This document shows, one piece after another, positions 49,081 through 64,000 of a DNA stretch of 64,000 nt; within the stretch, counting starts at the first letter, position 1; each line of letters starts with the position of its first letter. Where the stretch lies: contig NZ_FORP01000001.1 of assembly GCF_900114035.1 (NCBI RefSeq), forward strand, positions 434,001 through 498,000, read 5' to 3'. Source of the stretch: Amycolatopsis sacchari. Its GTDB lineage: Bacteria; Actinomycetota; Actinomycetes; Mycobacteriales; Pseudonocardiaceae. The position numbers and the translations under genes were made by a program. Under the pieces are notes generated by a model. It saw nothing but the letters and a program-made list of their open reading frames with translations, was not told where the DNA came from and searched no databases.

Positions 49081-50721
49081 GTGGCCGACCACCTCGCGTC
49101 GTTCGGGCTGTCGGCCGCACTGCGGCTCGCCGCCGCGCTCCGGCGGCTCGACCCTGCCGCCGCAAGGCCCGCGGCCGCCGTCGCGACCACACTGCGGGAC
49201 GGTTTCGGCGATGCCCTGACTGGCGTGCGGGTGTTCGTGGGCGACCGGTGCGAAGGTTTCGCGGGCTCGGCGGATGGACCTGTCGCCGGCGAGTTCTCCG
49301 GTGCACTGCGCGACGGGCAGCGCTTCCGCGTCGAACTGCTGGCGCCGCGCCCGGCGCCCGGATCCGCGCGGGCGGAGTTCCCGCTGCTCGCCGAGGCCGT
49401 CCGCGGCGTGCTGGACGGGGACGACAACGCGACGCTCGGGGACGCCGCCGCGGCCCGCGTCGCCGAACTCGAGACGACGGTGCGCCGGCTGCGCAACGAG
49501 GCGGCCGTCGTGGACTCCCTGCACACGGTCGGCCGCAGGCTCACCGCCCAGCTGGAGGTGGACGCGCTGGTGCAGGACGCCACGGACGCGGCGACCACGG
49601 CCACCGGCGCCGCCTTCGGGGCGTTCTTCTACAACCTGATCGACGAGTACGGCGAGTCCTACACCCTGTACACGCTTTCCGGCGCGCCCCGCGAGGCCTT
49701 CGCGAACTTCCCGATGCCGCGCAACACCAAGGTGTTCGGCCCGACCTTCGACGGGGTCGGCACGGTCCGCAGCGACGACATCACCCGGGATCCGCGCTAC
49801 GGCCACAACGAGCCCTACCACGGGATGCCGGAGGGGCACCTGCCCGTGCGCAGCTACCTCGCCGTGCCCGTGATCGCCCCGTCGACGGGGGAGGTGCTGG
49901 GCGGGTTGTTCTTCGGGCACGACCAGCCGGGCCGGTTCGACGAGCGCGGCGAGTACCTGGCGGAGGGCATCGCGGGCTACACCGCCATCGCGCTGGAGAA
50001 CGCCCGGTTCTTCGCCAGGGAGCGCACCATGGCGAGCGAGCTGGCGCGCAGCATGCTGCCCGTGCTGCCGGAACCGGCGGGACTGCGGATCGTGTCGCGG
50101 TACCAGCCGGCCGCGACGGGCTCGAAGGTCGGCGGCGACTGGTTCGACGTGATCGAGCTCGGCGGGCACCGCACCGCGTTCGTCATCGGCGACGTCGTGG
50201 GCCGGGGCGTGACCGCCGCGGCGATCATGGGCCAGGTCCGCACGGCGATCCGGTCCTGCGCACTGCTCGACCTCACGCCGTCGGAGGTCCTGCGCACCGT
50301 GTCACAGCTGGTCGGGACGACGCCCGGCGCGTCGTTCGTGACGTGCTTCTACGCCGTGCTCGACCCGGGGGCGGGCACCCTCACCTTCGCCAACGCCGGG
50401 CACCTGCCCGCGGTGCTGCTGCACCCGGACGGGGCCGTCGAGCAGCTGGGCGAGGCGCTCGCGATGCCGCTGGGCGTCGGCGCGGACTTCCCGCAGCTGA
50501 AGTGCGCTTTCCCGCGGGACACGCGGCTGGTGCTCTACACCGACGGGCTCATCGAAAGCCACACGCGGGACCTCACCGAGGGGATCGAGGTCCTGCTGGG
50601 CAAGCTCGGCAACCTGGCCGTGAGCGCCGACGTCGAGGCGGCCTGCGACGAGGTGATCGAGAGCCTCACCGGCGGCCGCCACGACGACGACGTGGCGCTG
50701 CTGTACGTGCACTACGAATAG
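49081..50721 (+). CDS. GAF-SpoIIE (PP2C-type) serine phosphatase
   Basis: A 546-residue protein: an unrecognised N-terminal region with an ANTAR/HATPase-like unrelated start (about 1-130), a GAF sensor domain (about 150-310, including [19 protein letters not shown] and [12 protein letters not shown]) and a C-terminal SpoIIE phosphatase. The phosphatase shows [44 protein letters not shown] and the late Asp in DDDVALLYV. It should dephosphorylate the STAS antagonist, switching the sigma factor on. GTG at 49081 follows GGAGGAAGGAG. Confidence 0.9.
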
Positions 50722-50729
50722 CGGCGGGC

Positions 50730-51398
50730 TCAGGGGGTGGCGGCGACCTTCTCCAGCCGGGCCTTGGCGTCGGCCAGCGGCTGCACGGGGGTGCCGTCGG
50801 CGGGCGGCTCGGTCGTCCCGGTTTCGGCCTCGGCCTTGGTTTCGGTCTTGGTTTCGGCCGGCTCGGCCTCCGGCTGCCGCGGCTTCGGCGCGGTCTCCTC
50901 CAGCCGGTCGGTCACGCGGTCGACGGTCTCGCCGATCTTGAGCAGCTGCGCCATCAGGTCCTTGCGGGTCTCGCGCAGGCGCGTGACCTCCTCCTCGGCC
51001 CGCTGGATCATCCGGCGGGACTCGTCGGCCGCGGCCTTGGCCGCCTGCTCGCGGAAGCGGCGGGCCTGGTCGGCCTCGTGCTCGACCGCGGCGCGGATCC
51101 TCGCGGCGTCGAGCTCGGCCTGTTCCCGCAGCTCCTCCGCCTCCGATTCGGCCAGCGCGATGATGCGCTCGACCCTGGCGCCGATGGTGCCGGAGCCCGC
51201 GTGCTCGATCGGCACGCCGGGGTCGGCGCCCAGCTCGGCCAGCCGCTGCTCGGCTTCCCGCAGCGCGGCCGCCTGGCGCTCGAAGCGGACCCGCACGGCC
51301 CGGACCCACTCGTCGACGTCCTGCCGCCGGTAGCCGCGGAAGGAGCCGGGGAACTCGGGCCGGAGGTCGAACTCGTCCGAAGCGGTGGTTTCAGCCAT
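50730..51398 (-). CDS. DivIVA-like coiled-coil protein
   Basis: A 222-residue protein. The N-terminus has FPGSFRGYRRQDVDEWV, matching the DivIVA/GpsB lipid-binding start, followed by a long coiled coil rich in Glu, Arg and Ala (about 35-165) and a low-complexity tail with Lys-Thr-Glu repeats. DivIVA-like proteins organise polar growth or septation in actinomycetes, but this short form is not the main polar DivIVA. It is separated from ddl by 50 bp. Confidence 0.8.
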   Translation of the reverse strand: MAETTASDEFDLRPEFPGSFRGYRRQDVDEWVRAVRVRFERQAAALREAEQRLAELGADPGVPIEHAGSGTIGARVERIIALAESEAEELREQAELDAARIRAAVEHEADQARRFREQAAKAAADESRRMIQRAEEEVTRLRETRKDLMAQLLKIGETVDRVTDRLEETAPKPRQPEAEPAETKTETKAEAETGTTEPPADGTPVQPLADAKARLEKVAATP

Positions 51399-51447
51399 GC
51401 CCCGATCCTCAGCCGAGGACCGGCGCCCTGCAATCCGGTGCCGCCGG

Positions 51448-52572
51448 TTACCGCCCGTTCGATGGAAAACGCGCGTTCCGGTTTGCGGGACCCAGCACCG
51501 CGGTGTCCACTGCGGACTCCTCGTGGTACCACAGCGCGGCGTCGACCAGCGCGTCGATCAGCCTCGGGTAGCTCAGCCCGGTCGCGTCCCACATCGCCGG
51601 GTACTGGGAGTGGCTGGTGAACCCGGGGAAGGTGTTGACCTCGTTGACTACGAGGCCGCCGTCCTCCCCGACGAAGAAGTCCACGCGCAGCAGGCCACGG
51701 CAGTCGAGCGCGCGGAAGGCCCGCAGCGCCTGCTCGCCCATCGCGGCCTCGATCGCCGGGTCGATCGACGCCGGGACGTCGAGCACCGTGGAGGCGTCCG
51801 CGTATTTGGCCTGGTAGTCGAAGAAGACCTCGCCGGTGAGGATCTCCAGCGGCGGGCTGACCCGCAGGCCGCCACCCGGCACCTCCAGCACGCCGATGTC
51901 GACCTCGCGGCCGGGGACCGCGGCCTCGACGAGCACCTTGCCGTCGCTGAGCCGGGCGGTCGCGAGCGCGGCGGGCAGCTCGTCCCAGGACGCGACCTTG
52001 GAGACACCGAGGCTGGAACCGGCGCGGGCGGGTTTGACGAACACGGGCAGGCCGAGCCGTTCGCGGTCGGCCTCGCTCAGCTCGTCGCCGGGCCGCAGCA
52101 CCGCACCCGGCGCGACGGCGAGCCCCGCGCCGGTGAGCACCTTCTTGGTGAACTCCTTGTCCATGCCCAGCGCGCTCGCGAGCACCCCGTTGCCCAGGTA
52201 GGGCAGGCCGGCGAGGCTCAGCAGCGACTGGACGGTGCCGTCCTCGCCGTAGGGGCCGTGGAGAGCGGGGAAGACCAGGTCGGCGGCGGACATCGCGGTG
52301 AGCGCGGCGGCGATGCTCGCCGCGGGGGTGGCGGTGGTGTCCTCCGGGAACGTGGTGCGCAGCCAGTCGAGCGCGTCCTCCGAACCCCGGCCGGCGAGCG
52401 CGGGCTCGTCCTGCCCGACCGTCCAGCGGCCGCTGGGCTGGATCTTGACCGGCACCACGTCGTAACGCCCGCGGTCCAGGTTGACGAAGATGCTCGCGGC
52501 GGACTGGCACGAGATCTCGTGCTCGCCGCTGCGCCCGCCGAACAACACGGCGAGGGTGATCCGGTCAGCCAC
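51448..52572 (-). CDS. ddl: D-alanine--D-alanine ligase
   Basis: A 374-residue ATP-grasp ligase joining two D-Ala for peptidoglycan precursors. Motifs are VLFGGRSGEHEIS, FPALHGPYGEDGTVQ, FVKPARAGSSLGVSKV, VDFFVGEDGGLVVNEVNTFPG, and the omega-loop FFDYQAKY. The Tyr-Asp-Tyr/Phe-x-Ala-Lys-Tyr form is the D-Ala-D-Ala type, not the His-containing D-lactate type of VanA. Its start overlaps the alr stop by 8 bp. Confidence 0.93.
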   Translation of the reverse strand: MADRITLAVLFGGRSGEHEISCQSAASIFVNLDRGRYDVVPVKIQPSGRWTVGQDEPALAGRGSEDALDWLRTTFPEDTTATPAASIAAALTAMSAADLVFPALHGPYGEDGTVQSLLSLAGLPYLGNGVLASALGMDKEFTKKVLTGAGLAVAPGAVLRPGDELSEADRERLGLPVFVKPARAGSSLGVSKVASWDELPAALATARLSDGKVLVEAAVPGREVDIGVLEVPGGGLRVSPPLEILTGEVFFDYQAKYADASTVLDVPASIDPAIEAAMGEQALRAFRALDCRGLLRVDFFVGEDGGLVVNEVNTFPGFTSHSQYPAMWDATGLSYPRLIDALVDAALWYHEESAVDTAVLGPANRNARFPSNGR

Positions 52573-53695
52573 TGCGCAACTCCTCGGTCGATGTCGCCGG
52601 CACCGGCAGGCCGACGTGGCGGCGCGGCACCCGGGCGCCGATCCCGGTGAAGATCTCGTGCGGGATCGTGCCGGCCCACTCCGCCCACTCCGTCACGGTC
52701 GGCTCGCCCTGCCCGCCGGGCCCGAACACCAGGACCTCGTCGCCGGGACGCGGGCTGGACTCGCCGAAGTCGACGACGAACTGGTCCATCGCGATCCGCC
52801 CCGCGACGGGAAAGCGCCTTCCGCGGCACCACACCTGGGCCCGTGGCCCGGCCGAGCGGGGCACGCCGTCGGCGAACCCGAGCGGGACGAGGCCGAGCGT
52901 ACTGGGGCAGGACGTCCGGTAGTCGTGCTCGTAGGACACACCGCTGCCGGCGGGCACCCGTTTCACCAGCACGAGCCGCGCCCGCAGGGTCATGGCGGGA
53001 CGCAGCCCGTAGGTGCGGTTGACGTCGGGCTCGATGCCGTACAGGCCGATACCGGGCCGGACGAGGTCGTAGTGCGTCTCCGGAGCGCCGAGCGCGGCGA
53101 CCGAATTGGCCAGGTGCCGGACGCTGGGCCGCAACCCGGCGCCGGTGGCGACGCCGAGCGCGTCCCGGAACCGCGCGACCTGGGCGGACAGACCGGGCGC
53201 GGTCGAGTCCTCGCCGTGGATGAGGTGTGACCAGACGCCGCGGACGCGGACGCGGCCCTGCCGTTCGAGCTCGGCGGCCCGGCGGACCAGCGCGGGCCAG
53301 TCCTCGGCGACGGCGCCGTTGCGGTGCAGCCCGGTGTCCGCCTTGAGGTGCACGGTCGGGACGAGGCCGTCGGCGAGCACGGCGTGGAGGTGCTCGAGCG
53401 AGGACACCGACAGGTCCACCTGGGCGGCGATGGCCTCACGCAGGCCCGCGTCGTGGGCGTGGAGCCAGCTCAGCAGCGGCGCGTCGACGCCGGCGGCGCG
53501 CAGCTGGAGGGCTTCCCCGCAGGTGGCCACGCCCAGCCAGGTCGCTCCGGCGGCCAGCGCGGCACGGGCGGTGGCGAGCGCGCCGTGGCCGAACCCGTCG
53601 GCCTTGACGACCGCCATCACCTCGGCGTTCGTGGCGGCGGCGAAGACACGCGTGTTGTGCGCGATGGCGCCGAGGTCCACGGTGGCCTCGGTCAT
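52565..53695 (-). CDS. alr: Alanine racemase
   Basis: A 376-residue PLP enzyme interconverting L- and D-alanine. The PLP lysine sits in VVKADGFGHG near the N-terminus (the common form is KANAYGHG). The second catalytic Tyr is in GVSYEHDY, and LVRPGIGLYG and MDQFVVDFG are conserved. It makes D-Ala for the ligase encoded just downstream, so the pair is a D-Ala-D-Ala module. It may be a second copy beside a housekeeping alr elsewhere; that cannot be seen here. ATG at 53695. Confidence 0.93.
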   Translation of the reverse strand: MTEATVDLGAIAHNTRVFAAATNAEVMAVVKADGFGHGALATARAALAAGATWLGVATCGEALQLRAAGVDAPLLSWLHAHDAGLREAIAAQVDLSVSSLEHLHAVLADGLVPTVHLKADTGLHRNGAVAEDWPALVRRAAELERQGRVRVRGVWSHLIHGEDSTAPGLSAQVARFRDALGVATGAGLRPSVRHLANSVAALGAPETHYDLVRPGIGLYGIEPDVNRTYGLRPAMTLRARLVLVKRVPAGSGVSYEHDYRTSCPSTLGLVPLGFADGVPRSAGPRAQVWCRGRRFPVAGRIAMDQFVVDFGESSPRPGDEVLVFGPGGQGEPTVTEWAEWAGTIPHEIFTGIGARVPRRHVGLPVPATSTEELRSG

Positions 53696-54121
53696 GACGT
53701 CGCCTCGCACTCGGGTGAGGGTGGTCCCGGGGCAGGGGAGCGGCAAGGAAAACCCGGCGATCTTGCCTGTCCGGGACACGTGGCGAAGCGAACGGGCACC
53801 CTTGCCGCCAGGTGCCGTCCCCCGCGCGGGCGAGCGCGGGAGTTGCCCGGCCCGCCGCCGCCGTGGTTGATCACCAATGGGCGCCTGGATCGGGGGAGAG
53901 CGTGACCGCGAGTCGCTCCTCTCGTGAGCGCGGGCGGCGCGGTGGCCGCTCGCGATCTTGTTGTCGGTCCGCATCGCGCTGCGCGGCCACCTGCGGAGGT
54001 GCTCGCCGCGCCGCCGCGGGTCACGCTGACAGTCGCCCCGCCGCGCCACCCGCCGGTCCGTACGTCGAGCACCCCGCGCCGTGAAGCACGAGGTTGTGCC
54101 GGCAGCCTTACGCTGGCGTCC
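53696..54121. other. Divergent intergenic region between alr and corA
   Basis: About 425 bp of GC-rich DNA upstream of both genes. ORFs across it have low-complexity Arg/Ala compositions with no family resemblance. I see no tRNA, no recognised riboswitch such as an M-box, and no strong palindrome. It presumably holds two promoters. Confidence 0.5.
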
Positions 54122-55087
54122 ATGACCCGCACGCGCGCGTACCGCAACGGGGTCCTCGAAGCCGAGGACTTCCCGCCGGAGGAGCTCTCGACGTACCTGC
54201 GGGACACGGGCGTGACCGTCTGGCTGGACCTGTGCGCGCCCGGCGAGGCCGACCTCGCGGTGGTGAGCGAGGAGCTGGGCCTGCACCGCCTGGCCGTGGA
54301 GGACGCGGTGTCCGAGCACCAGCGGTCCAAACTGGACCGTTACGACACGCACTCGTTCCTCACCGCGTGGGGCGTGCGGCTCGAGAACGGGGTGCTGGCG
54401 GCCGACGAGGTGGACGCGTTCATCACCGAGCGCGCGCTCGTGACGGTCCGCAAGTCCGAGGACTTCGACATCGAGGCCGTCGTGGCCCGCTGGGACTCGG
54501 CGGCGGAGCTCGCGAAGAGCGGGGTCGGGTTCCTCGTGCACGGCCTGCTCGACTACGTCGTCGACGGCTACTTCGAGGCCGTGCAGTCGCTCGACGACCA
54601 GATCGAGGGGCTGGAGGACTCGGTCTTCGCCGACAAGGTCGACCACCGGGACATGCAGCGCCGGTCGCTGCACCTGCGCAAGAGCCTGGTCAAGCTGCGG
54701 CGGGTGGTGCTGCCGATGCGGGAGGTGGTGAACTCCCTGATGCGGCGGGACGTCGGGCTCGCGGACGAGACGATGACCCCGTACTTCCAGGACGTCTACG
54801 ACCACGTGCTCCGCGCGTCGGAGTGGACCGAGTCGCTGCGGGACCTCGTCACCACGATCCGCGAGACGCAGCTGGCGATCCAGGGCAACCGGCTCAACAT
54901 CATCATGAAGAAGCTGACGGGCTGGGCCGCGATCATCGCCGTGCCGACCGCGATCACCGGCTTCTACGGGCAGAACGTGCCCTACCCCGGCTACGACCAG
55001 TGGTGGGGCTTCATCGTGTCCACGGCGGCGATCGTGGTGATCGCCGGTGCGCTGTACGTGCTGTTCAAACGCCGCGACTGGCTCTGA
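54122..55087 (+). CDS. CorA-family divalent-cation transporter with a GQN signature
   Basis: A 321-residue 2-TM-GxN channel: a soluble N-terminal alpha/beta domain (VWLDLCAPGEADL; VEDAVSEHQRSKLDRYD), a long helical stalk (SLHLRKSLVKLRRVVLPMREVV), two C-terminal helices (WAAIIAVPTAITGFYG; IVSTAAIVVIAGALYVLF) and the usual basic tail KRRDWL. The signature GMN is GQN here (YGQNVPYPG), which may change ion preference or gating. Its 3' end overlaps the convergent CDP-alcohol transferase by 97 bp. Confidence 0.88.
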   Translation: MTRTRAYRNGVLEAEDFPPEELSTYLRDTGVTVWLDLCAPGEADLAVVSEELGLHRLAVEDAVSEHQRSKLDRYDTHSFLTAWGVRLENGVLAADEVDAFITERALVTVRKSEDFDIEAVVARWDSAAELAKSGVGFLVHGLLDYVVDGYFEAVQSLDDQIEGLEDSVFADKVDHRDMQRRSLHLRKSLVKLRRVVLPMREVVNSLMRRDVGLADETMTPYFQDVYDHVLRASEWTESLRDLVTTIRETQLAIQGNRLNIIMKKLTGWAAIIAVPTAITGFYGQNVPYPGYDQWWGFIVSTAAIVVIAGALYVLFKRRDWL

Positions 55088-55791
55088 GCCCGCCACAGCC
55101 AGTGCACGTCGCGCCCGAACGACCAGGTCAGCAGCGCGAGCGCGGCCGCGGCCACGGCAGTCCCGGCGAGCGTGGGCAGCACGCCGGAGCACACGGCGAC
55201 GAGCAGGATCCCCTGCAGCGCCGCGACGGTCTTGCGGGCGCGGCTCGGCGGCAGGGCCGCCCGCAGCCACGGCAGCACCCACGCGGCCGCGACGAAGCCG
55301 TAGCGCATCGCGCCGATCACCAGCACCCACGCGCCGTGCGTGAACGCGGCCTGCACGCTCAGCACGAGGATCAGGAAAGCGTCGACCTCCATGTCGAACC
55401 GCGCGCCGAGCGCGGAGACCGTGTTGGTGCGCCGGGCGACCTGGCCGTCCACGGCGTCGAGCAGCAACGCGACCGACGCCAGTGTCGTGAACACCGCCAC
55501 CGGCTGCGCGCCGCCGAGGCGGTCGGCTACCAGCGCCGTCACCCCGCCGACGAGCACCGCGCGGGCGAGGGTGACCAGATCGGCGGGCCCGAGCGCGGTG
55601 ACGCGGGCGCGGCGCTGCGCGGACGCGAGCAACGCCAGCATTGCGGCCGCGAACGCGGCACCGGTGAGCCAGCCCGCCGGGCCCAGCCCGACGGCCGCGG
55701 CGAGCCCGGCGAGCAGCAGCAGCTGCGCTCCCGCCGCCGCGGTCTGCTCGGATGCCGCGACGGCCGTGCTGTACTGAGCCCGAGTGATCAT
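54991..55791 (-). CDS. CDP-alcohol phosphatidyltransferase family protein
   Basis: A 266-residue membrane enzyme with about six helices and the family motif D-x2-D-G-x2-A-R-x8-9-G-x3-D-x3-D (LLDAVDGQVARR then GARFDMEVDAF). It transfers a phosphoalcohol head group from a CDP-linked donor. ATG at 55791 faces the dehydrogenase start 25 bp away, so it is divergent from the pterin-like cluster and probably part of it. The lipid or alcohol substrate is unknown. Confidence 0.88.
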   Translation of the reverse strand: MITRAQYSTAVAASEQTAAAGAQLLLLAGLAAAVGLGPAGWLTGAAFAAAMLALLASAQRRARVTALGPADLVTLARAVLVGGVTALVADRLGGAQPVAVFTTLASVALLLDAVDGQVARRTNTVSALGARFDMEVDAFLILVLSVQAAFTHGAWVLVIGAMRYGFVAAAWVLPWLRAALPPSRARKTVAALQGILLVAVCSGVLPTLAGTAVAAAALALLTWSFGRDVHWLWRAQSQSRRLNSTYSAPAITTIAAVDTMKPHHWS

Positions 55792-55816
55792 CGTGCCCCT
55801 TCCTGGGAGGTCTTCC

Positions 55817-56794
55817 ATGACACGAAGCGCACGGGCGTTCTGGTTCAACCCGCCGGGACGCGGGGAGATTCGGACCGCCCAGGTGGGCGAGCCGGGCCCC
55901 GGTGAGGTGCTGGTGCGCACGCGCTACACGGGCGTGAGCCGCGGGACCGAGTCGCTGGTGCTGCGGGGCGGGGTGCCGGAGAACCAGTACGAGGTGATGC
56001 GCGCGCCGTTCCAGGAGGGCGAGTTCCCCGGCCCGGTGAAGTACGGCTACCTCAACGTCGGCGTGGTCGAGGCGGGTGAGCCGGAGCTGCTGGGGCGCAC
56101 GGTGTTCTGCCTGTACCCGCACCAGACGCACTACGTCGTCCCCGCCGCCTCGGTCACCGTCGTGCCCGACACCGTGCCGCCGGAACGCGCCATCCTCGCG
56201 GGCACGGTGGAGACGGCGGTGAACGCGTTGTGGGACGCCGCCCCGCTCGTCGGCGACCGCATCGCGGTGGTGGGCGCGGGCATGGTCGGGTCGAGCGTGG
56301 CCGGGATACTGGCGCGGTTTCCCGGGGTGCGGCTGCAGCTCGTGGACCCCGATCCGGCGCGGGCGGAGATCGCGAAAGCCTTCGGCATCCCCTTTGCCCG
56401 GTCCGAGGACGCCGCGGGGGACTGCGACCTCGTGGTGCACGCCAGCGCCACCGAGGCGGGGCTCGTCCGGTCGCTGGAGCTGCTCGCGCCGGAGGGGGAG
56501 GTGATCGAGCTCAGCTGGTACGGCGACCGGCGGGTCAGCGTGCCGCTGGGGGAGTTCTTCCACTCGCGGCGGCTGGCGGTGCGGGCCAGCCAGGTCGGGG
56601 CGGTGTCCCCGGCGCGCCGGTCCCGGCGGACCTTCGGCGACCGGCTGGCGCTCGCGCTCGACCTGCTCGCCGAGCCCGCCTTCGACGTGCTGATCACCGG
56701 GGAAAGCGGTTTCGACGAGCTGCCCTCGGTGCTGCCGCGGCTCGCCGACGGTGAGCTTCCCGCGCTGTGCCACCGGATTCGCTACGGTTCGTGA
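55817..56794 (+). CDS. Zinc-less medium-chain dehydrogenase of the pterin-like cluster
   Basis: A 325-residue MDR-fold oxidoreductase. The GroES-like half ([19 protein letters not shown]) lacks the Cys/His zinc ligands, and the coenzyme half has [18 protein letters not shown]. It resembles the bacteriochlorophyllide a dehydrogenase-like branch of the MDR family. It would oxidise or reduce an alcohol/ketone on a cluster intermediate. GGGAGG precedes the ATG. The next gene starts 1 bp after its stop. Confidence 0.82.
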
Positions 56795-56795
56795 A

Positions 56796-57194
56796 ATGTT
56801 CGCCATCACCGTCCGCGACCACGTCATGGTCGCCCACAGCTTCCGCGGCGAGGTCTTCGGCCCCGCGCAGCGCCTGCACGGCGCCACGTTCGTCGTGGAC
56901 GCGACCTTCCGCCGCGCCGAACTGGACCAGGACAACATCGTCGTCGACATCGGACTCGCCACCACCGAGCTGAAGGCGGTGCTCGCCGACCTCAACTACC
57001 GCAACCTCGACGACGAACCCGATTTCCGCGGGATCAACACCTCCACCGAGTTCCTGGCGAAGGTGATCGCGGACCGGCTGGCCGAGCGGGTGCACGCCGG
57101 GGCGCTGGGGGAGGGCGCCCGGGGGCTGTCCGGGATCGCGGTGACGCTGCACGAATCCCACGTGGCCTGGGCGAGTTACGAGCGGACGCTGTGA
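56796..57194 (+). CDS. PTPS/QueD-fold protein lacking zinc and catalytic residues
   Basis: A 132-residue T-fold protein of the 6-pyruvoyltetrahydropterin synthase / 6-carboxytetrahydropterin synthase family ([33 protein letters not shown]). Of the three zinc His, His14 and His28 remain but the third is Ala30 (HGA instead of HGH). The catalytic Cys position is Ala24, and the Asp-His pair reads Asp65-Leu66. I recall that S. coelicolor SCO6650, a homologue from a similar cluster, also lacks zinc and triad and has no PTPS activity. It probably binds a pterin-like molecule but does other chemistry. Confidence 0.85.
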
Positions 57195-58219
57195 CCGCCG
57201 TGCACGTCGTGCTGCCCGGCGACGTCGACGACGCGACGGTGCCCAGCGGCGGCAACCGGTACGACCGGCGCCTCTGCGAGGGCCTGCCCGGCGTGCACGA
57301 GACAGCGCTTCCCGGTTCGTGGCCGAGGCCCGCGTCCACCGCGGGCCTCGCCGCCGCCCTCGCCGCGGTGCCCGACGGCGGGGTCGTGCTGCTGGATGGC
57401 ATCGTCGCATGTGGACTGCCGGAAGTCGTGGTACCGCAAGCACAACGGCTCCGGATCGCGGTGCTCGTGCACCTGCCGCTCGCCGAGGAGACCGGGCTGG
57501 AGCCCGGCGTCGCGGCGGATTTGGACAGGCGCGAGCGCGAGACGCTGCACGCGGTCGCGGCCGTCGTCGTGACGAGTCAGTGGACGGCGCGGCACCTCAC
57601 GGAGAAACACGGCCTGTCGCCGGAAAAGGTTCACGTCGTCGAGCCGGGCGTGGACCCGGCGCCGCTCGCGCGGGGCACCGACGGCGTCTCACACCTGCTG
57701 TGTGTCGCGTCGGTGACACCTCGCAAGGGACAGGACCTGCTGGTGGAGGCGCTGGCGAGCGTCGAAGGCAGCTGGCGGTGCGTGTTCGCCGGACCGTTCC
57801 GGCGCGACCCGGTGTACGTGGCGCGGGTGCGGGAGCTGATCGCGACACACGGGCTCGGCGAACAGTGCATCCTCGCCGGGCCCCTGACCGGGCAGGCGCT
57901 TGAGGATGCCTATGACGCGGCAGATCTCGTCGTGCTGCCTTCGCGCGCGGAAACCTACGGCATGGTCGTGACCGAAGCGCTCGCCCGGGGTGTGCCCGTG
58001 CTCGCGACCGACGTCGCGGGTATCGCGGAAACCCTGGCGGGAGCGGGAATCGTGGTACCGCCCGGTGACGCCGGGGCGCTCGCGGACGGCCTGCGAACGT
58101 GGTTCGGTGACGCCGGGAAGCGCCAGTCGCTTCGCGACGCCGCCCGCGTCCGCCGTGGCATGCTGGCGCCGTGGACCGAGACCTCGCGCCGCATGGCGGC
58201 GGTGCTGGCCCGGCTGTGA
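57191..58219 (+). CDS. GT4-type glycosyltransferase
   Basis: A 342-residue GT-B glycosyltransferase with the family-4 features [24 protein letters not shown], the donor-binding helix [22 protein letters not shown] and [11 protein letters not shown] at 57191 overlaps the previous stop (GTGA). A nucleotide-sugar donor and a cluster-made acceptor are inferred. Its stop overlaps the methyltransferase start. Confidence 0.9.
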
Positions 58220-59016
58220 CGCCGGGTTTCAGCCCGGACTGGCTGGCACTGCGGGAAAAGGCGGACGCGGCGGCGCGAGCGGCCGAACTCGTCGAACCCC
58301 TGCTGGCGGTGCTGCCGCCGGGCCCGCTGGTGATCCACGACCTCGGCTGCGGCACGGGGTCGATGGCACGCTGGCTCGCCCCGCTGCTGCCGCGCGCGCA
58401 GCGGTGGGTGCTGCACGACCGCGATCCCGTCCTGCTCGCGCACGCGGCGAAGAGCGTCCCGGTGCCGGTGGAAACGCGCGCCGGTGACCTCACCCGGCTC
58501 CGCGCGGCGGACCTGGCGGGCGCCTCCCTCGTCACCGCGTCGGCGCTGCTGGACCTGCTCACCGCCGACGAGGTGGAGGCGCTCGCGGACGCCTGCACGG
58601 GCGCGGGCTGCCCGGCGTTGCTGACGTTGTCGGTGGCCGGTGAGGTCGAGCTGAGCCCCGCCGAGCCGCTGGACCTGCGCTTCGCCGCCGCCTTCGACGA
58701 CCACCAGCGGCGGACGGTGGACGGCAGGACGCTGCTCGGGCCCGACGCGGTGCGGGTCGCGACCGAGGCGTTCGTGCGCCGCGGCGCGGTCGTGCACAGC
58801 AGGCGCAGCCCGTGGCGGCTCGGCCCCGGTGAACTTTTCCGCGAGTGGCTCCGTGGATGGGTTGAAGCGGCGTGCGAACAGCAGCCCCAGCTGCGACCGC
58901 ACGCCGCGGGATACCTGAGTCGCCGGCTCGGCAGCGAGGCCGTGGTCGGCCACGTCGACCTGCTCGCGATCGGTGGTGCGCCTTGTTCCCCAGACTCTGG
59001 CCCTGGCTCCGGCTGA
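58216..59016 (+). CDS. Class I SAM-dependent methyltransferase
   Basis: A 266-residue methyltransferase with the SAM glycine loop VIHDLGCGTGSMARWL, WVLHDRDPVLL after the second strand, and a predicted DxxLLDLL segment. GTG at 58216 overlaps the glycosyltransferase stop; an upstream GTG at 58171 is in frame but less likely. It would methylate a cluster intermediate. Confidence 0.88.
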   Translation: MTPGFSPDWLALREKADAAARAAELVEPLLAVLPPGPLVIHDLGCGTGSMARWLAPLLPRAQRWVLHDRDPVLLAHAAKSVPVPVETRAGDLTRLRAADLAGASLVTASALLDLLTADEVEALADACTGAGCPALLTLSVAGEVELSPAEPLDLRFAAAFDDHQRRTVDGRTLLGPDAVRVATEAFVRRGAVVHSRRSPWRLGPGELFREWLRGWVEAACEQQPQLRPHAAGYLSRRLGSEAVVGHVDLLAIGGAPCSPDSGPGSG

Positions 59017-60029
59017 TACTGGCCGCCGGCATCCTCGGGGTGCTGGCCTGGCGGCTGGGCACGGCCGCCTTCCTCGACGGGATCAGGGCCGTCGACGGCA
59101 CCGCCGTCCTCACCGCGCTCGGACTGGGCGTGCTGACGACGGTGTGCAGCGCGGCGCGGTGGTGCCTCGTCTCGCGTCGCCTCGGGCTGCCGTTGGGCCT
59201 GGGCACGGCCGTGTCGGACTACTACCGCGCCCTGCTGCTCAACGCGGTGCTGCCTGCCGGGGTGCTGGGCGACGTGCACCGCGCCGTGAGCCACGGCCAG
59301 GCGACCGGGCAGGTCGGGCGCGGGGTGCGGGCGGTGTTCCTGGAACGGTTCGCCGGGCAGGCGGTGCTCCTCGTCGCGGCCCTGGCGGTGCTCCCGGCGG
59401 TACCGGGCGGGCTGGTGTCGGTCCAGGCATTGGGGTTCGCGGGGGCCGCGGTCACGGTGCTGGTCGCGGCACTGGTGTGCTGGGTGAGGTTCGGGCGCGG
59501 TACCTCCCGCGTCCGCAAGGCCGTGGCCGACACGCTGACCGACGCGCGGGCGGCGTTGCGCGGACCCGGAGTGGCGTCGCTGTCGGCGGTGACGCTCGCC
59601 GGCCACGTCACGATGTACCTCGTCGCCGCGCGGGCGGCGGGGGTGACCGCACCCGTCGCCCAGCTCGTGCCGCTGGTCGTGCTGGCGCTCCTGGTGATGG
59701 CTGTTCCGGTGAACATCGGCGGGTACGGACCGCGGGAAGCGTTTTCCGCGGTCGCCTTCGGCGCGGCCGGTGTCGGCGCGGCGGCGGGGGTGACGACCGC
59801 CGTGGTCTACGGCGTGCTCACCCTCGTCGCCGCGTTGCCGGGCGTGGTCGTGTTGTTCACCCGCAGGTCAGGCGAACAGCGCCAGGTGGTCGCCGAAGGC
59901 GTCGGCGAGCGCCGCGAGCGCGTCCCGGCCCTTCTCCGCGGACGCCAGGGACGGGTAGCCGATCACCCCGGACCGCGTGTACGCCGCGACGCCGAGCGTC
60001 AGCAGGTGGCGGCGGTCGGGGGCCGGTGA
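58983..60029 (+). CDS. Lysylphosphatidylglycerol synthase-type (UPF0104) membrane protein
   Basis: A polytopic protein of about 348 residues with roughly 7-8 helices (LRLILAAGILGVLAWRL; LTALGLGVLTTVCSAARWCLV; family motif LLNAVLPAGVLGDVHRA and PVNIGGYGPREAFSAV). The family includes flippase-like membrane domains that handle lipid-linked molecules. TTG at 58983 is the only in-frame start near the true N-terminus, overlapping the methyltransferase. After FTRRSG the frame runs about 50 residues of Arg-rich sequence over the convergent creatininase gene, so the natural C-terminus may have been extended by loss of a stop. Confidence 0.82.
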   Translation: MFPRLWPWLRLILAAGILGVLAWRLGTAAFLDGIRAVDGTAVLTALGLGVLTTVCSAARWCLVSRRLGLPLGLGTAVSDYYRALLLNAVLPAGVLGDVHRAVSHGQATGQVGRGVRAVFLERFAGQAVLLVAALAVLPAVPGGLVSVQALGFAGAAVTVLVAALVCWVRFGRGTSRVRKAVADTLTDARAALRGPGVASLSAVTLAGHVTMYLVAARAAGVTAPVAQLVPLVVLALLVMAVPVNIGGYGPREAFSAVAFGAAGVGAAAGVTTAVVYGVLTLVAALPGVVVLFTRRSGEQRQVVAEGVGERRERVPALLRGRQGRVADHPGPRVRRDAERQQVAAVGGR

Positions 60030-60563
60030 GTCGGCCGTCTCGAAGCCGGGGCGGACGGCCTCGGGGAAGGCGTGCAGCAGGATCGACGTCTCCAGCTCCC
60101 CGGCGTGCATGTCGGTGTCCGCGGTGGTGCTCAGCCCGGCCGCGGCCCGCGCCGCCTCCCACTCCGGCAGCCCGGGGAACAGGCCGAGCCTGCCGCGGCT
60201 TTCCTGCACCACGTTCGCGAGCACGTAGTTGCCGCCGTGCCCGTTGACCAGCACCAGGTGCGGAACCCCGCTGTCGCGCAAGGAATCGGCGATGTCGGTG
60301 ACCACCGCGTACAGCGTTTTCGCCGAGATGCTCACGGTCCCCGGCCAGGCCGCGTGCTCGTGCGAGCAGGAGATCGTGAGGGGCGGCAACAACCGCACGG
60401 GGTGTGCCGCGGCGATTTCCGAGGCCAGCGCGCACGCGATCAGCGTGTCCGTGGCCAACGGCAGGAAGTCGCCGTGCTGTTCGAAACTCCCCACCGGCAG
60501 CACGGCCACCCCGCTCGCCCGGTCGCGGAACTCCGCGCTCGTCGTGAACGGCAACAGGTCCAT
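59868..60563 (-). CDS. Creatininase-family amidohydrolase (ArfB/MftE-like)
   Basis: A 231-residue metal-dependent amidohydrolase. Metal ligands are seen in VGSFEQHGDFLPLATDT (Glu, His, Asp), VNGHGGN (His) and HAGELETS (Glu). The family includes creatininase, mycofactocin MftE and archaeal ArfB, which removes formate from the GTP-derived FAPy nucleotide. Next to a GTP cyclohydrolase II with an altered key residue, ArfB-like deformylation is the attractive role. It is on the opposite strand, 52 bp from the ribA-like start, overlapping the flippase-like gene by 162 bp. Confidence 0.88.
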   Translation of the reverse strand: MDLLPFTTSAEFRDRASGVAVLPVGSFEQHGDFLPLATDTLIACALASEIAAAHPVRLLPPLTISCSHEHAAWPGTVSISAKTLYAVVTDIADSLRDSGVPHLVLVNGHGGNYVLANVVQESRGRLGLFPGLPEWEAARAAAGLSTTADTDMHAGELETSILLHAFPEAVRPGFETADSPAPDRRHLLTLGVAAYTRSGVIGYPSLASAEKGRDALAALADAFGDHLALFA

Positions 60564-60615
60564 CAGTCGTGTATACCGGGAAAAGCTGCCCGGACACAGG
60601 GAACAGGGGGAAGCA

Positions 60616-61254
60616 ATGCCCGACCCGATCATCGCCCGCGAGGACGTCGCGGAGTCCGAACTGGTGACGCGGCGCGGCCGGTTCTCCGCGGTCGCCTTCC
60701 GCCACGGCGGCCACGAGCACATGGCGCTCGTGCACGGCCGCGTGCGGTCCCGTGAGGACGTGCTCGTGCGTGTCCACTCGGAATGCCTCACCGGGGACAT
60801 CTTCGGCGCGCTGCGGTGCGAGTGCGGCGAGCAGCTCGGGGCCGCGCTCGACGCGATCGTCCGCGAGGGCAGCGGGATACTGGTGTACCTGCGCGGGCAG
60901 GAGGGCCGCGGGATCGGGCTGGTGGCGAAGGTCCGCACGCACGTGCTGCAGGACGAGCAGGGACTGGACACGGTGGACTCCGCGACGAGCCTCGGCCTGC
61001 CGGTGGACGTGCGGGACTACACGCCCGCCGCGGTCGTGCTCGCGTACCTGGGCGTGCGGTCGGTGCGGCTGATGTCGAACAACCCGGACAAGATCGCCTC
61101 GCTGGAGGAGCACGGGATCCGGGTGACCGAACGGGTTCCGCTGCTGATGCCGCCGAGCGAGAACAACATCGCGTACCTGAAGGCCAAACGCGACCGGCTC
61201 GGGCACGACCTGCCGCAGCTGGACCGGTTCGCGGTGGGGGAGCGGCATGGCTGA
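60616..61254 (+). CDS. GTP cyclohydrolase II paralogue with Tyr-to-His change
   Basis: A 212-residue GTP cyclohydrolase II with zinc ligands Cys57, Cys68 and Cys70 (VHSECLTGDIF; RCECG) and nucleotide-binding segments GQEGRGIGL, SNNPDKI. The residue equivalent to E. coli Tyr105 is His109 (KVRTHVLQ versus KIRAYALQ), and there is a one-residue Gly insertion at LRGQEGR. In S. coelicolor paralogues, loss of this Tyr was reported to stop the second hydrolysis so FAPy is released. No ribB, ribD or ribH is near, so this is a pathway-specific rather than a riboflavin gene. Confidence 0.9.
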   Translation: MPDPIIAREDVAESELVTRRGRFSAVAFRHGGHEHMALVHGRVRSREDVLVRVHSECLTGDIFGALRCECGEQLGAALDAIVREGSGILVYLRGQEGRGIGLVAKVRTHVLQDEQGLDTVDSATSLGLPVDVRDYTPAAVVLAYLGVRSVRLMSNNPDKIASLEEHGIRVTERVPLLMPPSENNIAYLKAKRDRLGHDLPQLDRFAVGERHG

Positions 61255-62044
61255 CGTCGCCGGGCTGCTGCCGGTGGCGCGGGAGGCGGTGGCGGTCGCG
61301 CGGCGGATCGTGCTCGCGCGGGCTCCGGTTTCGGTGCGCAGCAAGGGCGACCGGGATCCGGTGACCGATGTGGACCTCGCGGTGGAGGACGCGGTGCGCG
61401 AGTTCCTGTCCCGCGAGACGCCGCACCTGGGAGTCCTGGGGGAGGAGCACGGGCGGTCCGGCGCGGCGGACGGGGCGTGGTGGGTGCTGGACCCGGTGGA
61501 CGGCACCGCGAACTTCGCCCGAGGCATCCCGTTGTGCGGCGTCTCGCTGGGGCTCGTCGACGGACGGCGTGCGGTGCTCGCCGCGATCGACCTGCCGTAC
61601 CTGGGCGAGACGTACTCCGCTGTGGAGGGCTCCGGCGCGTACGCGGGGGAGGAGCGGATCTCCGCGTCCACAGCGGCCCAGCTGTCCGACGCGATGATCG
61701 CCGTCGGGGACTTCGCGGTCGGGGAAGGGGCGGAGGTCAAGAACCAGGCGCGCCTGCGGCTGCTGGAGCACCTCGGCCGCCGTGCCCAGCGGATCCGGAT
61801 GCTGGGCACGGCGGCGGTCGACCTGGCGTGGGTGGCTTCGGGGCGGCTGGAGGCCGCGGTGATCCTGGCGAACCTGCCGTGGGACACGCTGGCCGGCGTG
61901 CTGCTGGTCCGCGAGGCGGGCGGGTTCGTCCTGGACGGCGACGGCACCGAGCACACGGTGGAGTCGAGCGCGACGATCGCCGTCTGCCCGGCTCTGCGCG
62001 AAGACCTGATGAAGTGTATAACGCCATATACCGCACGGGTTTGA
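61247..62044 (+). CDS. Inositol-monophosphatase-family phosphatase
   Basis: A 265-residue Mg-dependent, Li-sensitive-type phosphatase with motifs GEEHG, WVLDPVDGTANFARG and the late GTAAVDLAWVASGRLEA and LPWDTLAG. Its ATG overlaps the cyclohydrolase gene by 8 bp. In this setting it may remove the 5'-phosphate from the GTP-derived ribosyl-pyrimidine; inositol, histidinol or PAP phosphatase activity are alternatives. Confidence 0.88.
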   Translation: MADVAGLLPVAREAVAVARRIVLARAPVSVRSKGDRDPVTDVDLAVEDAVREFLSRETPHLGVLGEEHGRSGAADGAWWVLDPVDGTANFARGIPLCGVSLGLVDGRRAVLAAIDLPYLGETYSAVEGSGAYAGEERISASTAAQLSDAMIAVGDFAVGEGAEVKNQARLRLLEHLGRRAQRIRMLGTAAVDLAWVASGRLEAAVILANLPWDTLAGVLLVREAGGFVLDGDGTEHTVESSATIAVCPALREDLMKCITPYTARV

Positions 62045-62050
62045 CGCGAC

Positions 62051-62880
62051 TCATCGTGGCTGGGCACCCCGGCATCCGGCTTCCAGTTCAAAACTCGCGA
62101 CGACGCAGACCGAAGCCTGCGGCCGGGACACGCGGTCGAACTTCCGGTGCGGGTTGGCCCGCAGTAGTGCGGCGGCGCCCGGCGGGTGGTCGATCCCGTC
62201 GCCTTCGGAGCTGATGGAGGTGCCGACGAACTCGGTGGCCACCACGGGCGAGGTGGGATCGTCGAAGTCGGCGTGCACGTCGGCGACGAAGTTGCCGTGG
62301 GCGTTGTGGAACAGCCAGTCCTTCTGCGGGGCACCGAGCATCGTGTGTGCCGGGCTGCGGTACTGGCGGGTGTCCAGGACGTGGAAGTCCACGAGGTCCC
62401 CGAGCACCAGCCTCCGGTGGATCCGGATGTCCGGCCCGGTGGGGCGCTGGGCGCGGCGCAACGGCAGGTGCTCGTAGTACGCCTGGAAGGCCGCCGCCCG
62501 GCGTGCACGGAACTCGCCGCGCGGTATGCCGGTGTCGGAGTGGTCGCCGGCCCAGTTGTTCTGCACCTCGTGGTCGTCGAACACCGCGATCCACGGGAGG
62601 GCCGCGTGGGCCGCCTGGAGGTTCGTGTCGGACTTGTACTGGGCGAAACGCACCCGGTAGTCGGCCAGTGTCCGCAGTTCGCGCGGGGGAGGTGCCCGCG
62701 CCCGATGCCGCCCTGCGAACCGCCTTCGTAGATGTAGTCGCCGAGGAACACCACCAGGTCCAGCTCCTCCTCGGCGAGGTGGGCGTGGGCGGTGTAGTTC
62801 TCCGAGGCGCGGATCGCGGCGATGACGTCCTCGCGCCAGCAGATGGCCCAGCGCGGGCAGTTGTTGCAGGGCCTGGCGTG
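62051..62880 (-). pseudogene. Truncated, frameshifted PhoD-type phosphatase/phospholipase D
   Basis: PhoD landmarks appear in two frames. One holds ENYTAHAHLAEEELDLVVFLGDYIYEGG upstream of about 62690, seen as LDLVVFLGDYIYEGG. The other holds LADYRVRFAQYKSDTNLQAAHAALPW, VFDDHEVQNNWAGD, RRAAAFQAYYEHLPLRR and VDFHVLDTRQYRS. The break lies at a run of five G (plus strand 62685-62689) where six would restore the frame. The N-terminus with its signal peptide is missing, and the C-terminus is lost after LLRANPHRKF. An indel in the run may be a sequencing error, but truncation at both ends supports decay. Confidence 0.8.
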
Positions 62881-62983
62881 CCGACAGCGGGCAGCCGCAG
62901 GTTGGCGACCCTGGCCTGCTCGGACGGCGCGGCGGACACGGGCGGCAGCCCGGTCGGGCCGCCCGGCCCCGGATCAGGGGGGA

Positions 62984-63652
62984 TCAGGACGCGGGGAGGC
63001 GATAGACGTCGGTGCGCCACAGCTGCGCGGTCTCGTCCAGCTGCGTCCAGTCGTCAGCGCGGCGGAATCCCCGTTCGGCCAGCGCCGCGTCGACCTCGGC
63101 GGCGGTGGCAGCCGCAGGGACAACGAGGTCGCCACCGCGCGGCTGGCCCTCGACGACCACGGCCTCGCCGTGGCGGCGATTCCAGTGCGTGGCGAACCGG
63201 TCCGGTTCGACGACGGGCCCGGCCGGCATGTCGGCGATCGCGGTCAGCCACGATACGCCGAGTTCCTTCAGGCGGACGTCGTCGGGCTTGCCGTCCAGCT
63301 CCAGCACCTGGTTCTGGGTGAACAGCGGATCGCCGTCGGCGTCGCAGCCCACGGTGAACAGCCCGAGGTCGGCGACGTAGGTGCAGCTCGTGCCGATCCA
63401 CTCGTAGGCAGGTTCCTCGTAGACGGTGAACCCGACCGCGGGGGCTTTCTCGATCAGCGCGTGCGCCAGGACGATGGCGCTGCCGCACGGGAAGCTGGCG
63501 GCGGTGTACCGCTCGGCCAGGTGCAGGGTCGTGTTGTCCGCGGCCTCGTCGTAGGCCAGGTCGTACTCGGCGAGGGTGTCGAGCACGGTGCGCACGCGGT
63601 GCGGCGGCACCGGAGGTCCAGTCGCCCATTTCGGATCCGCTGGGCGGCACAC
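62984..63652 (-). CDS. Hypothetical protein, unknown family
   Basis: Encodes 222 residues from GTG 63652, or 208 from GTG 63610; neither start has a good ribosome site. It is a soluble, acidic alpha/beta-looking protein (EYDLAYDEAADNTTLHLAERY; WIGTSCTYVADLGLFTVGCDADGD; VLELDGKPDD). No family or signal peptide is recognised. It is flanked by the decayed PhoD gene and an intergenic hairpin. Confidence 0.6.
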   Translation of the reverse strand: MCRPADPKWATGPPVPPHRVRTVLDTLAEYDLAYDEAADNTTLHLAERYTAASFPCGSAIVLAHALIEKAPAVGFTVYEEPAYEWIGTSCTYVADLGLFTVGCDADGDPLFTQNQVLELDGKPDDVRLKELGVSWLTAIADMPAGPVVEPDRFATHWNRRHGEAVVVEGQPRGGDLVVPAAATAAEVDAALAERGFRRADDWTQLDETAQLWRTDVYRLPAS

Positions 63653-63984
63653 GACCGTTCAGCGCGGCCCGCGGCACACCGGCTGCCGAATCCCTGGGCT
63701 TCCTCGCCAGCTGGACCAGTGAGCAGACCGGCAGTCAGCGGCGCCCGTAACGCCCGGCCCGGCCCCCAGCGCGCCGTAGTAGCGGTGGCTCGCCGCGAGG
63801 CCGGCGAGCAGCAAGCAGGGTCCTCATCGGACCGACGCGCGGCCTGGCGTCCTACGGACACGCCCGCACCGGCAGCGTTCTGAACGCTCCTCCGGTGCGG
63901 GCCGGAAAAGGACTGGGCGGCTTCCAGCAGCCGGTGCTACGGTCGCGGCTCCCCGAGCCACGAAGGCCGATCCGGAGGTACTGC
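63653..63984. other. Intergenic region with a long hairpin
   Basis: About 330 bp with no supportable gene. It holds the strong inverted repeat at 63864-63900 and a possible -10 hexamer TACGGT at 63938, upstream of the plus-strand start at 63985. Confidence 0.5.
63864..63900. repeat. Nested inverted repeat in a divergent intergenic region
   Basis: CCGCACCGG pairs with CCGGTGCGG and, inside, AGCGTT pairs with AACGCT around a CTG loop, giving a stem of 15 bp with small bulges. It is upstream of both flanking genes, so it may be a leader structure, a protein site, or the terminator of a lost gene. Confidence 0.7.
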
Positions 63985-64000
63985 ATGCTGCGAGGACTCC
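63985..64000 (+). CDS. First codons of a gene leaving the window
   Basis: ATG at 63985 is preceded by GGAGG at 63974-63978 with good spacing. Only MLRGL can be read. No function can be given. Confidence 0.5.

Follow-up and report, generated by a model that had tools for sequence, protein, structure and literature searches.

A candidate actinobacterial pathway for opening GTP that pairs a tyrosine-less cyclohydrolase homologue with a creatininase-family protein

Nine neighbouring genes at 54991-62044 of a 64,000-nucleotide stretch of Amycolatopsis sacchari DNA (the window) probably encode a biosynthetic pathway that opens GTP in a split reaction, by a homologue of GTP cyclohydrolase II (GCHII) and a formamidase of the creatininase family, followed by rearrangement by a T-fold protein of the PTPS family and a medium-chain dehydrogenase/reductase (MDR) and by decoration of the product. 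The other genes encode a GT4-family glycosyltransferase (GT), a methyltransferase (MT), a CDP-alcohol phosphotransferase (CDPA), a UPF0104 membrane protein and an inositol-monophosphatase-family phosphatase (IMPase). A preliminary description, made from the letters alone, had read the cluster as a route to a glycosylated, possibly lipid-linked metabolite derived from GTP. All nine genes lie where it placed them and belong to the families it named, and our analysis supports the start from GTP. The pairing between loss of a tyrosine in GCHII and a linked creatininase gene, described below, is new in this analysis.

Loss of the GCHII tyrosine and the linked creatininase gene

A Tyr residue at the position of Tyr105 in E. 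coli RibA is required for deformylation. The alignment places His109 of the window GCHII at this position, so that the Tyr of canonical GCHII (RibA) is missing from the window protein; the RibBA protein of the same genome keeps it. We compared 103 distinct GCHII sequences from the clusters and sought a creatininase gene within 9 kb of the PTPS gene. Such a gene was found with GCHIIs carrying Met (31), His (28), Leu (5) or Gln (3) instead of Tyr, and with none of the 35 Tyr-type cluster GCHIIs. One more Leu-type GCHII had no creatininase within 9 kb; the same genome carries one 14 kb away that is 67 percent identical. When it is counted, all 68 Tyr-less cluster GCHIIs are accompanied by a creatininase (67 within 9 kb and one 14 kb away). 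The residue in the Streptomyces loci is Met. Tyr was present in all 40 control GCHIIs chosen from outside the clusters.

The creatininase translation contains the EQH, LPLATD, NGHGGN and HAGE motifs and hence the metal motifs of the family. SCO6655 of Streptomyces coelicolor, a GCHII paralogue with Met at the position in question, reportedly halts at the formylated product (work of Spoonamore et al.). Because of the pairing and this reported halt, the cluster creatininase is most likely the missing formamidase by which the GCHII reaction is completed, a counterpart of archaeal ArfB and rhizobial BrbF.

In total, 141 loci were analysed, comprising the window's locus, 20 and 40 stretches from further genomes, and the best 80 of at least 566 related places kept from a scan of further genomes. 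Counts of gene order and state were made on the 111 complete loci, among which 63 have a Tyr-less GCHII together with a creatininase, 27 have a Tyr-type GCHII without it, 20 have neither gene and one (L092) has the creatininase alone. On a tree of MDR and PTPS sequences, in which the state of one locus (L141) was assigned by hand, Tyr-less GCHII and creatininase change nine times each. The best such tree provided nine non-overlapping contrasts, of which eight point in the same direction, one shows no difference and none is opposite.

The gene set in the window and in its relatives

A search with the PTPS protein found its orthologue in 24 of the 41 near genomes. Within the class, 58 of 394 genomes, from 26 of 138 genera, had a match, which was weak in one case. 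In the phylum, the PTPS query matched 66 of 246 genomes, with most matches outside the class below 40 percent identity. In a thinned set of 78 loci, picked to contain MDR and PTPS, we found GT in 76, CDPA and UPF0104 in 72 each, MT in 66, GCHII in 58, creatininase in 42, a reductase in 33, a sulfatase-like protein in 25 and IMPase in 6. The co-occurrence of the cluster genes exceeds chance. The core, read downstream, is MDR, T-fold protein and GT4, usually followed by MT, and it is rigid: MDR lies immediately 5' of PTPS in 104 and GT immediately 3' of PTPS in 108 of the 111 complete loci. The gene set is real, occurs in many soil actinobacteria and recurs as a set over many genera. Its conservation reaches far beyond close relatives, which goes against the refuting case named in the preliminary description (a gene order confined to close relatives), though the other blocks are rearranged around the core. 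As a single pathway group, the nine genes hold up as a conserved set; they do not form one operon, and IMPase, present in only 6 of 78 thinned loci, was rejected as a core gene.

Some loci depart from this picture. Four Streptomyces species (L090, L098, L112 and L122) have lone copies of the T-fold gene in similar surroundings, with the other eight families absent nearby, and are uninformative. One genome (G048) carries two different clusters (L129 and L130), and in L036 GT and MT are separated by an inserted transporter-like gene and a further methyltransferase-like gene.

Judged by its match to PDB 3D7J ('Uncharacterized protein SCO6650'), the T-fold gene of the window is the orthologue of SCO6650 and belongs to subfamily PTPS-IV. 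The FGPAQ signature is present in the window protein and in 131 of 137 distinct relatives, and Glu120, His14 and His28 are invariant in all 137. The three zinc-binding His and catalytic Cys of PTPS/QueD are incomplete in the window protein, where Ala24 stands at the Cys site and HGA replaces HGH (frequencies of both substitutions among PTPS-IV proteins in Table 1); Ala24 was equated with Cys through the Cxxx(xx)HGH motif (PMC5445326). The assignment to the PTPS fold thus stands for the family, with one zinc His and the Cys lost. The earlier mention of similar genes around SCO6650-SCO6655 is borne out by the 3D7J match and by Streptomyces loci such as L029 with a six-gene run, PTPS-GT-MT-UPF0104-creatininase-GCHII, which by its gene count we infer to correspond to the numbers SCO6650 to SCO6655.

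A protein with a RibD_C domain was found among the further linked genes of relatives. Among curated models it fits TIGR01508 best (archaeal 2,5-diamino-6-ribosylamino-pyrimidinone 5'-phosphate reductase), and its solved relatives include such pyrimidinone-phosphate reductases. In complete loci, this reductase is linked in 26 of 27 with a Tyr-type GCHII, in 10 of 63 with a Tyr-less GCHII and in 9 of 20 without GCHII (10 of these 45 are weaker matches). Reductase and GCHII share one open frame in four loci (L044, L045, L073 and L081), with both domains confirmed in L045 and L073. The window genome has seven RibD_C places, and the one most similar to the cluster reductase is a reductase-deaminase protein (L169; G000:C64:17750-18364), whose domain order is the reverse of the usual RibD.

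We fetched ten matches of the phylum scan and ran the neighbour models at E 1e-4. Six of the ten (L211-L215 and L219, with one family code) have reductase-MDR-PTPS-GT in a row, and their T-fold protein shows both FGPA and the complete HGH zinc motif; methyltransferase-type and FolB-type genes lie near all six (Pfam checked for L214). No CDPA, UPF0104, creatininase or GCHII was detected beside these six at that threshold. The oldest core seen is therefore reductase-MDR-T-fold-GT, to which CDPA may have been added later. L217, a short contig from another family outside the class, carries GCHII, reductase, UPF0104, GT and PTPS. The remaining three (L216, L218 and L220) are QueD-like proteins with no match to MDR, GT or reductase adjoining and were rejected as cluster members; L216 and L218 have a GCHII match at a distance of about 5 to 6 kb.

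Eight of the nine window proteins scored above the Pfam cut-off, the exception being the dehydrogenase. It is a divergent MDR, with BchC as its top NCBIfam match far under the cut-off, a predicted model of the MDR fold (mean pLDDT 87.7) and the segment [SAG][VIA]S[RK]GTE in 108 of 111 loci. PDB profile searches with MDR, CDPA and GT4 and a fold search with MDR gave family-level matches only. The CDPA motif D..DG..AR..G...D...D is complete in 101 of 102 loci with a CDPA match, in an alignment that includes the window; this intact active-site motif makes phosphatidyl transfer plausible. A membrane protein of the sulfatase family (PF00884), which could handle lipid head groups, often lies beside CDPA (25 of 78 thinned loci, for example L078:6640-8214, minus strand); a search with one such neighbour gave no PDB match up to E 0.1.

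The genes of the window fall into four strand blocks: CDPA (-), MDR-PTPS-GT-MT-UPF0104 (+), creatininase (-) and GCHII-IMPase (+). Because of these four blocks, a reading as one operon is ruled out. The genes were described as mostly overlapping, which applies inside the plus-strand runs, with intergenic distances of +1 bp (MDR/PTPS), -4 (PTPS/GT), -4 (GT/MT), -34 (MT/UPF0104) and -8 (GCHII/IMPase), but not elsewhere. CDPA is divergent from MDR with 25 bp between them, and the antisense creatininase gene reaches 162 bp into the annotated end of UPF0104, whose true end is uncertain, and lies 52 bp from GCHII. The genome comprises 7.6 Mb in 72 contigs. At gathering scores, Rfam gave no match in window positions 50000-64000. 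Upstream, a gene that looks CorA-like by eye (54119-55087, plus strand) ends inside the antisense CDPA gene, with a tail-to-tail overlap of 97 bp. Downstream, a PhoD-type phosphatase-like sequence over two frames (62051-62754, minus strand; by eye) is probably a broken gene.

Table 1. Genes and codons of the cluster, in window positions (FAPyP, formylated ribosylaminopyrimidine phosphate; SAM, S-adenosylmethionine)
Feature	Position	Strand	Basis
CDP-alcohol phosphotransferase (CDPA)	54991..55791	-	PF01066 E 5.7e-11; motif alignment
Zinc-less medium-chain dehydrogenase/reductase (MDR), core gene	55817..56794	+	MDR fold; BchC match below cut-off
PTPS-IV T-fold protein, SCO6650 orthologue, core gene	56796..57194	+	PDB 3D7J E 1.6e-72; PF01242
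Ala24 codon of PTPS-IV, site of PTPS/QueD catalytic Cys	56865..56867	+	Ala in 137/137
Ala30 codon of PTPS-IV, in place of second His of HGH zinc motif	56883..56885	+	Ala in 136/137
GT4-family glycosyltransferase (GT), core gene	57191..58219	+	PF00534 E 1.1e-29
SAM-dependent methyltransferase (MT)	58216..59016	+	PF13649 E 4.5e-8
UPF0104 / LPG_synthase_TM membrane protein	58983..60029	+	PF03706 E 5.4e-27; TTG start assumed
Creatininase-family protein, proposed FAPyP formamidase	59868..60563	-	PF02633 E 3.2e-62, 210.5 bits
GTP cyclohydrolase II (GCHII) homologue without catalytic Tyr	60616..61254	+	PF00925 E 1.6e-60, 203.9 bits, cut-off 23.3
His109 codon of GCHII	60940..60942	+	aligns with E. coli RibA Tyr105
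Inositol-monophosphatase-family phosphatase (IMPase), accessory	61247..62044	+	PF00459 E 9.4e-52

A proposed route and its alternatives

In the route that we propose, the Tyr-less GCHII would turn GTP into FAPyP (also called AFRPP) and go no further, and the creatininase-family protein would strip the formyl group to give 2,5-diamino-6-ribosylamino-4(3H)-pyrimidinone 5'-phosphate (DARPP). In relatives with Tyr in GCHII, one enzyme would perform both steps. The linked or fused ArfC/RibD_C-type reductase of many relatives would then convert DARPP to the ribityl compound; since no such gene lies near the window cluster, in A. sacchari this enzyme would have to be encoded elsewhere in the genome. 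The first two steps are suggested by co-occurrence and the third by linkage and fusion in relatives. PTPS-IV would hold the 2-amino-4-oxopyrimidine via the invariant Glu120. It might act with the zinc-less MDR to rearrange the ring or side chain, perhaps to a pterin-like heterocycle, as the invariant residues and the MDR model suggest. GT4 would glycosylate the product and the methyltransferase would methylate it, and in Actinomycetes CDPA and UPF0104 may link it to a phospholipid and carry it across the membrane. Genes, motifs, linkage and co-occurrence are seen directly in the DNA; each catalytic step and the identity of the product are predictions from them.

The preliminary description had called the early enzymes pterin/deazapurine-type, a label that we replace. 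Because of the Tyr-less GCHII with its creatininase, and of the ArfC/RibD-type reductase linked or fused in relatives, the early route looks riboflavin-like in the archaeal order, not folate- or queuosine-like: a split GCHII and formamidase joined, in relatives, by a ribosylaminopyrimidine reductase. A queuosine or 7-deazaguanine pathway was rejected, as the nine genes include neither QueC nor QueE (Pfam) and the zinc and Cys residues are altered.

Several observations weigh against the proposed route. In the GCHII tree all Tyr-less sequences fall into one clade, so that Tyr may have been lost in one event, which counts once, and on well supported branches of the MDR and PTPS tree only four contrasts are left (three in the same direction, one without difference, none opposite), too small a number for significance. 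L092 has a creatininase with no GCHII nearby, the window genome has a second, unlinked creatininase-family gene, and the absence of creatininase from Tyr-type genomes was checked only within 9 kb. The window creatininase reaches neither the NCBIfam cut-off of ArfB (35.4 bits, cut-off 180) nor that of MftE, its best match (137.7 bits, cut-off 172). The reductase scores under the TIGR01508 cut-off, is not near 53 of 63 Tyr-less clusters and is not linked in the window neighbourhood. For the T-fold protein, MDR, GT, MT and CDPA, the roles are predictions from sequence. A lipid-linked product, as first suggested, is possible with the CDPA motif intact but unproven, and neither CDPA nor UPF0104 was detected beside the six deep-branching operons.

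A first alternative takes a different course after DARPP. The second half of the GTP cyclohydrolase I reaction consists of an Amadori rearrangement and ring closure, and if the T-fold protein performed these on DARPP without any reduction, dihydroneopterin monophosphate would result, and redox chemistry, glycosylation and methylation would yield a pterin glycoside. The invariant Glu and two of the three zinc His retained in PTPS-IV, the lack of a linked reductase at the window and at 53 of 63 Tyr-less loci, and the FolB gene near six deep-branching loci are consistent with this course. We nevertheless hold it to be unlikely, as the reductase accompanies 26 of 27 Tyr-type loci, is fused to GCHII in four and belongs to the six deep-branching operons. 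It is more doubtful still that the formylated compound itself feeds the later steps while the creatininase acts elsewhere, for example as an MftE-like peptidase or on a late intermediate. The MftE match and the single clade of Tyr-less GCHIIs would fit such a role, but the creatininase tracks the Tyr-less GCHII and not the cluster, being absent from 20 of 21 GCHII-less complete loci and from 27 of 27 Tyr-type loci; moreover, a formamidase of this family is proven in another system (PMC9478397). Membership of the creatininase in the mycofactocin system was rejected on its MftE score.

A route into F420 or riboflavin would account for the riboflavin-like front-end enzymes, and PTPS-IV is stated to act in F420 synthesis, with reference to unpublished data (PMC5041015). 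Among 40 picked genomes, however, CofH scored over the cut-off in all 21 PTPS-IV-negative and in 14 of 19 PTPS-IV-positive genomes, and we rejected a general F420 role of PTPS-IV on the resulting 5 of 19 versus 0 of 21 below the cut-off. No lumazine or riboflavin synthase is found among the nine genes (Pfam), and from established knowledge the GT, MT and membrane genes fit neither pathway, which makes this route highly improbable.

Relation to known systems and significance

The proposed order is that of the archaeal ArfA-ArfB-ArfC module (GTP cyclohydrolase III, creatininase-family formamidase and DARPP reductase), with a halt at the formylated compound, a separate deformylase and reduction before deamination, the reductase being found in relatives of the window cluster. 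Unlike ArfA, the cluster cyclohydrolase is a homologue of GCHII and not of GTP cyclohydrolase III; the cluster proteins score under the ArfB and ArfC cut-offs, and unlike the archaeal product the cluster product would be decorated by GT, MT and possibly a lipid. In the pair SCO6655/SCO6650 of S. coelicolor, the T-fold protein is orthologous to that of the window; to our knowledge, no pathway, creatininase partner or product has been assigned to the pair. A 2010 paper treats SCO6655 as a riboflavin gene and reports an anticorrelation between its expression and the predicted flux (PMC2853524).

BrbF of Sinorhizobium and Brucella is a known creatininase-family formamidase for the formylated compound, with the same deformylation proposed for a bacterium as here; it serves riboflavin and has no assigned cyclohydrolase partner, whereas in the cluster a Tyr-less GCHII adjoins the creatininase (PMC9478397). 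The AGeNNT paper of 2017 (PMC5445326) had already described the PTPS-IV subfamily by its FGPAQ signature and reported PF00925 and PF01872 among its neighbours; both signature and neighbours agree with ours. PF00925 was taken there for GTP cyclohydrolase I/FolE2, and the section concerned mentions no creatininase, GT, MT, CDPA or residue link. The claim that no known pathway uses this gene set fits our search of open-licence literature, in which no listing or inspected passage tied a product to these genes or the GCHII residue to the creatininase, but it has to be qualified by the neighbourhood noted in 2017.

The finding gives a testable partner to two orphans, the GCHII paralogue SCO6655 and the T-fold protein SCO6650, which has a solved structure and no function. 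It also offers a bacterial cyclohydrolase-formamidase pair of the kind that the BrbF authors called missing when they noted that no enzyme had yet been identified as the bacterial source of the formylated intermediate (PMC9478397). Streptomyces, Amycolatopsis, Micromonospora and Actinomadura are among the genera for which the finding predicts a GTP-derived metabolite that is so far uncharacterised. A bolder proposal, which we put forward tentatively and with considerable doubt, is that a membrane-anchored lipid, both glycosylated and methylated, occurs in Actinomycetes and has a ribityl-pyrimidine or ribityl-pterin head group. This head group would be derived from GTP by a two-protein cyclohydrolase of bacteria, with a Tyr-less GCHII in the place of the missing bacterial 'GCHIII' and a formamidase of the creatininase family, and by a T-fold protein and a dehydrogenase that are both zinc-less. 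If true, such a lipid would resemble a cofactor, with a role in redox chemistry or signalling, and nothing of its kind would have been described so far.

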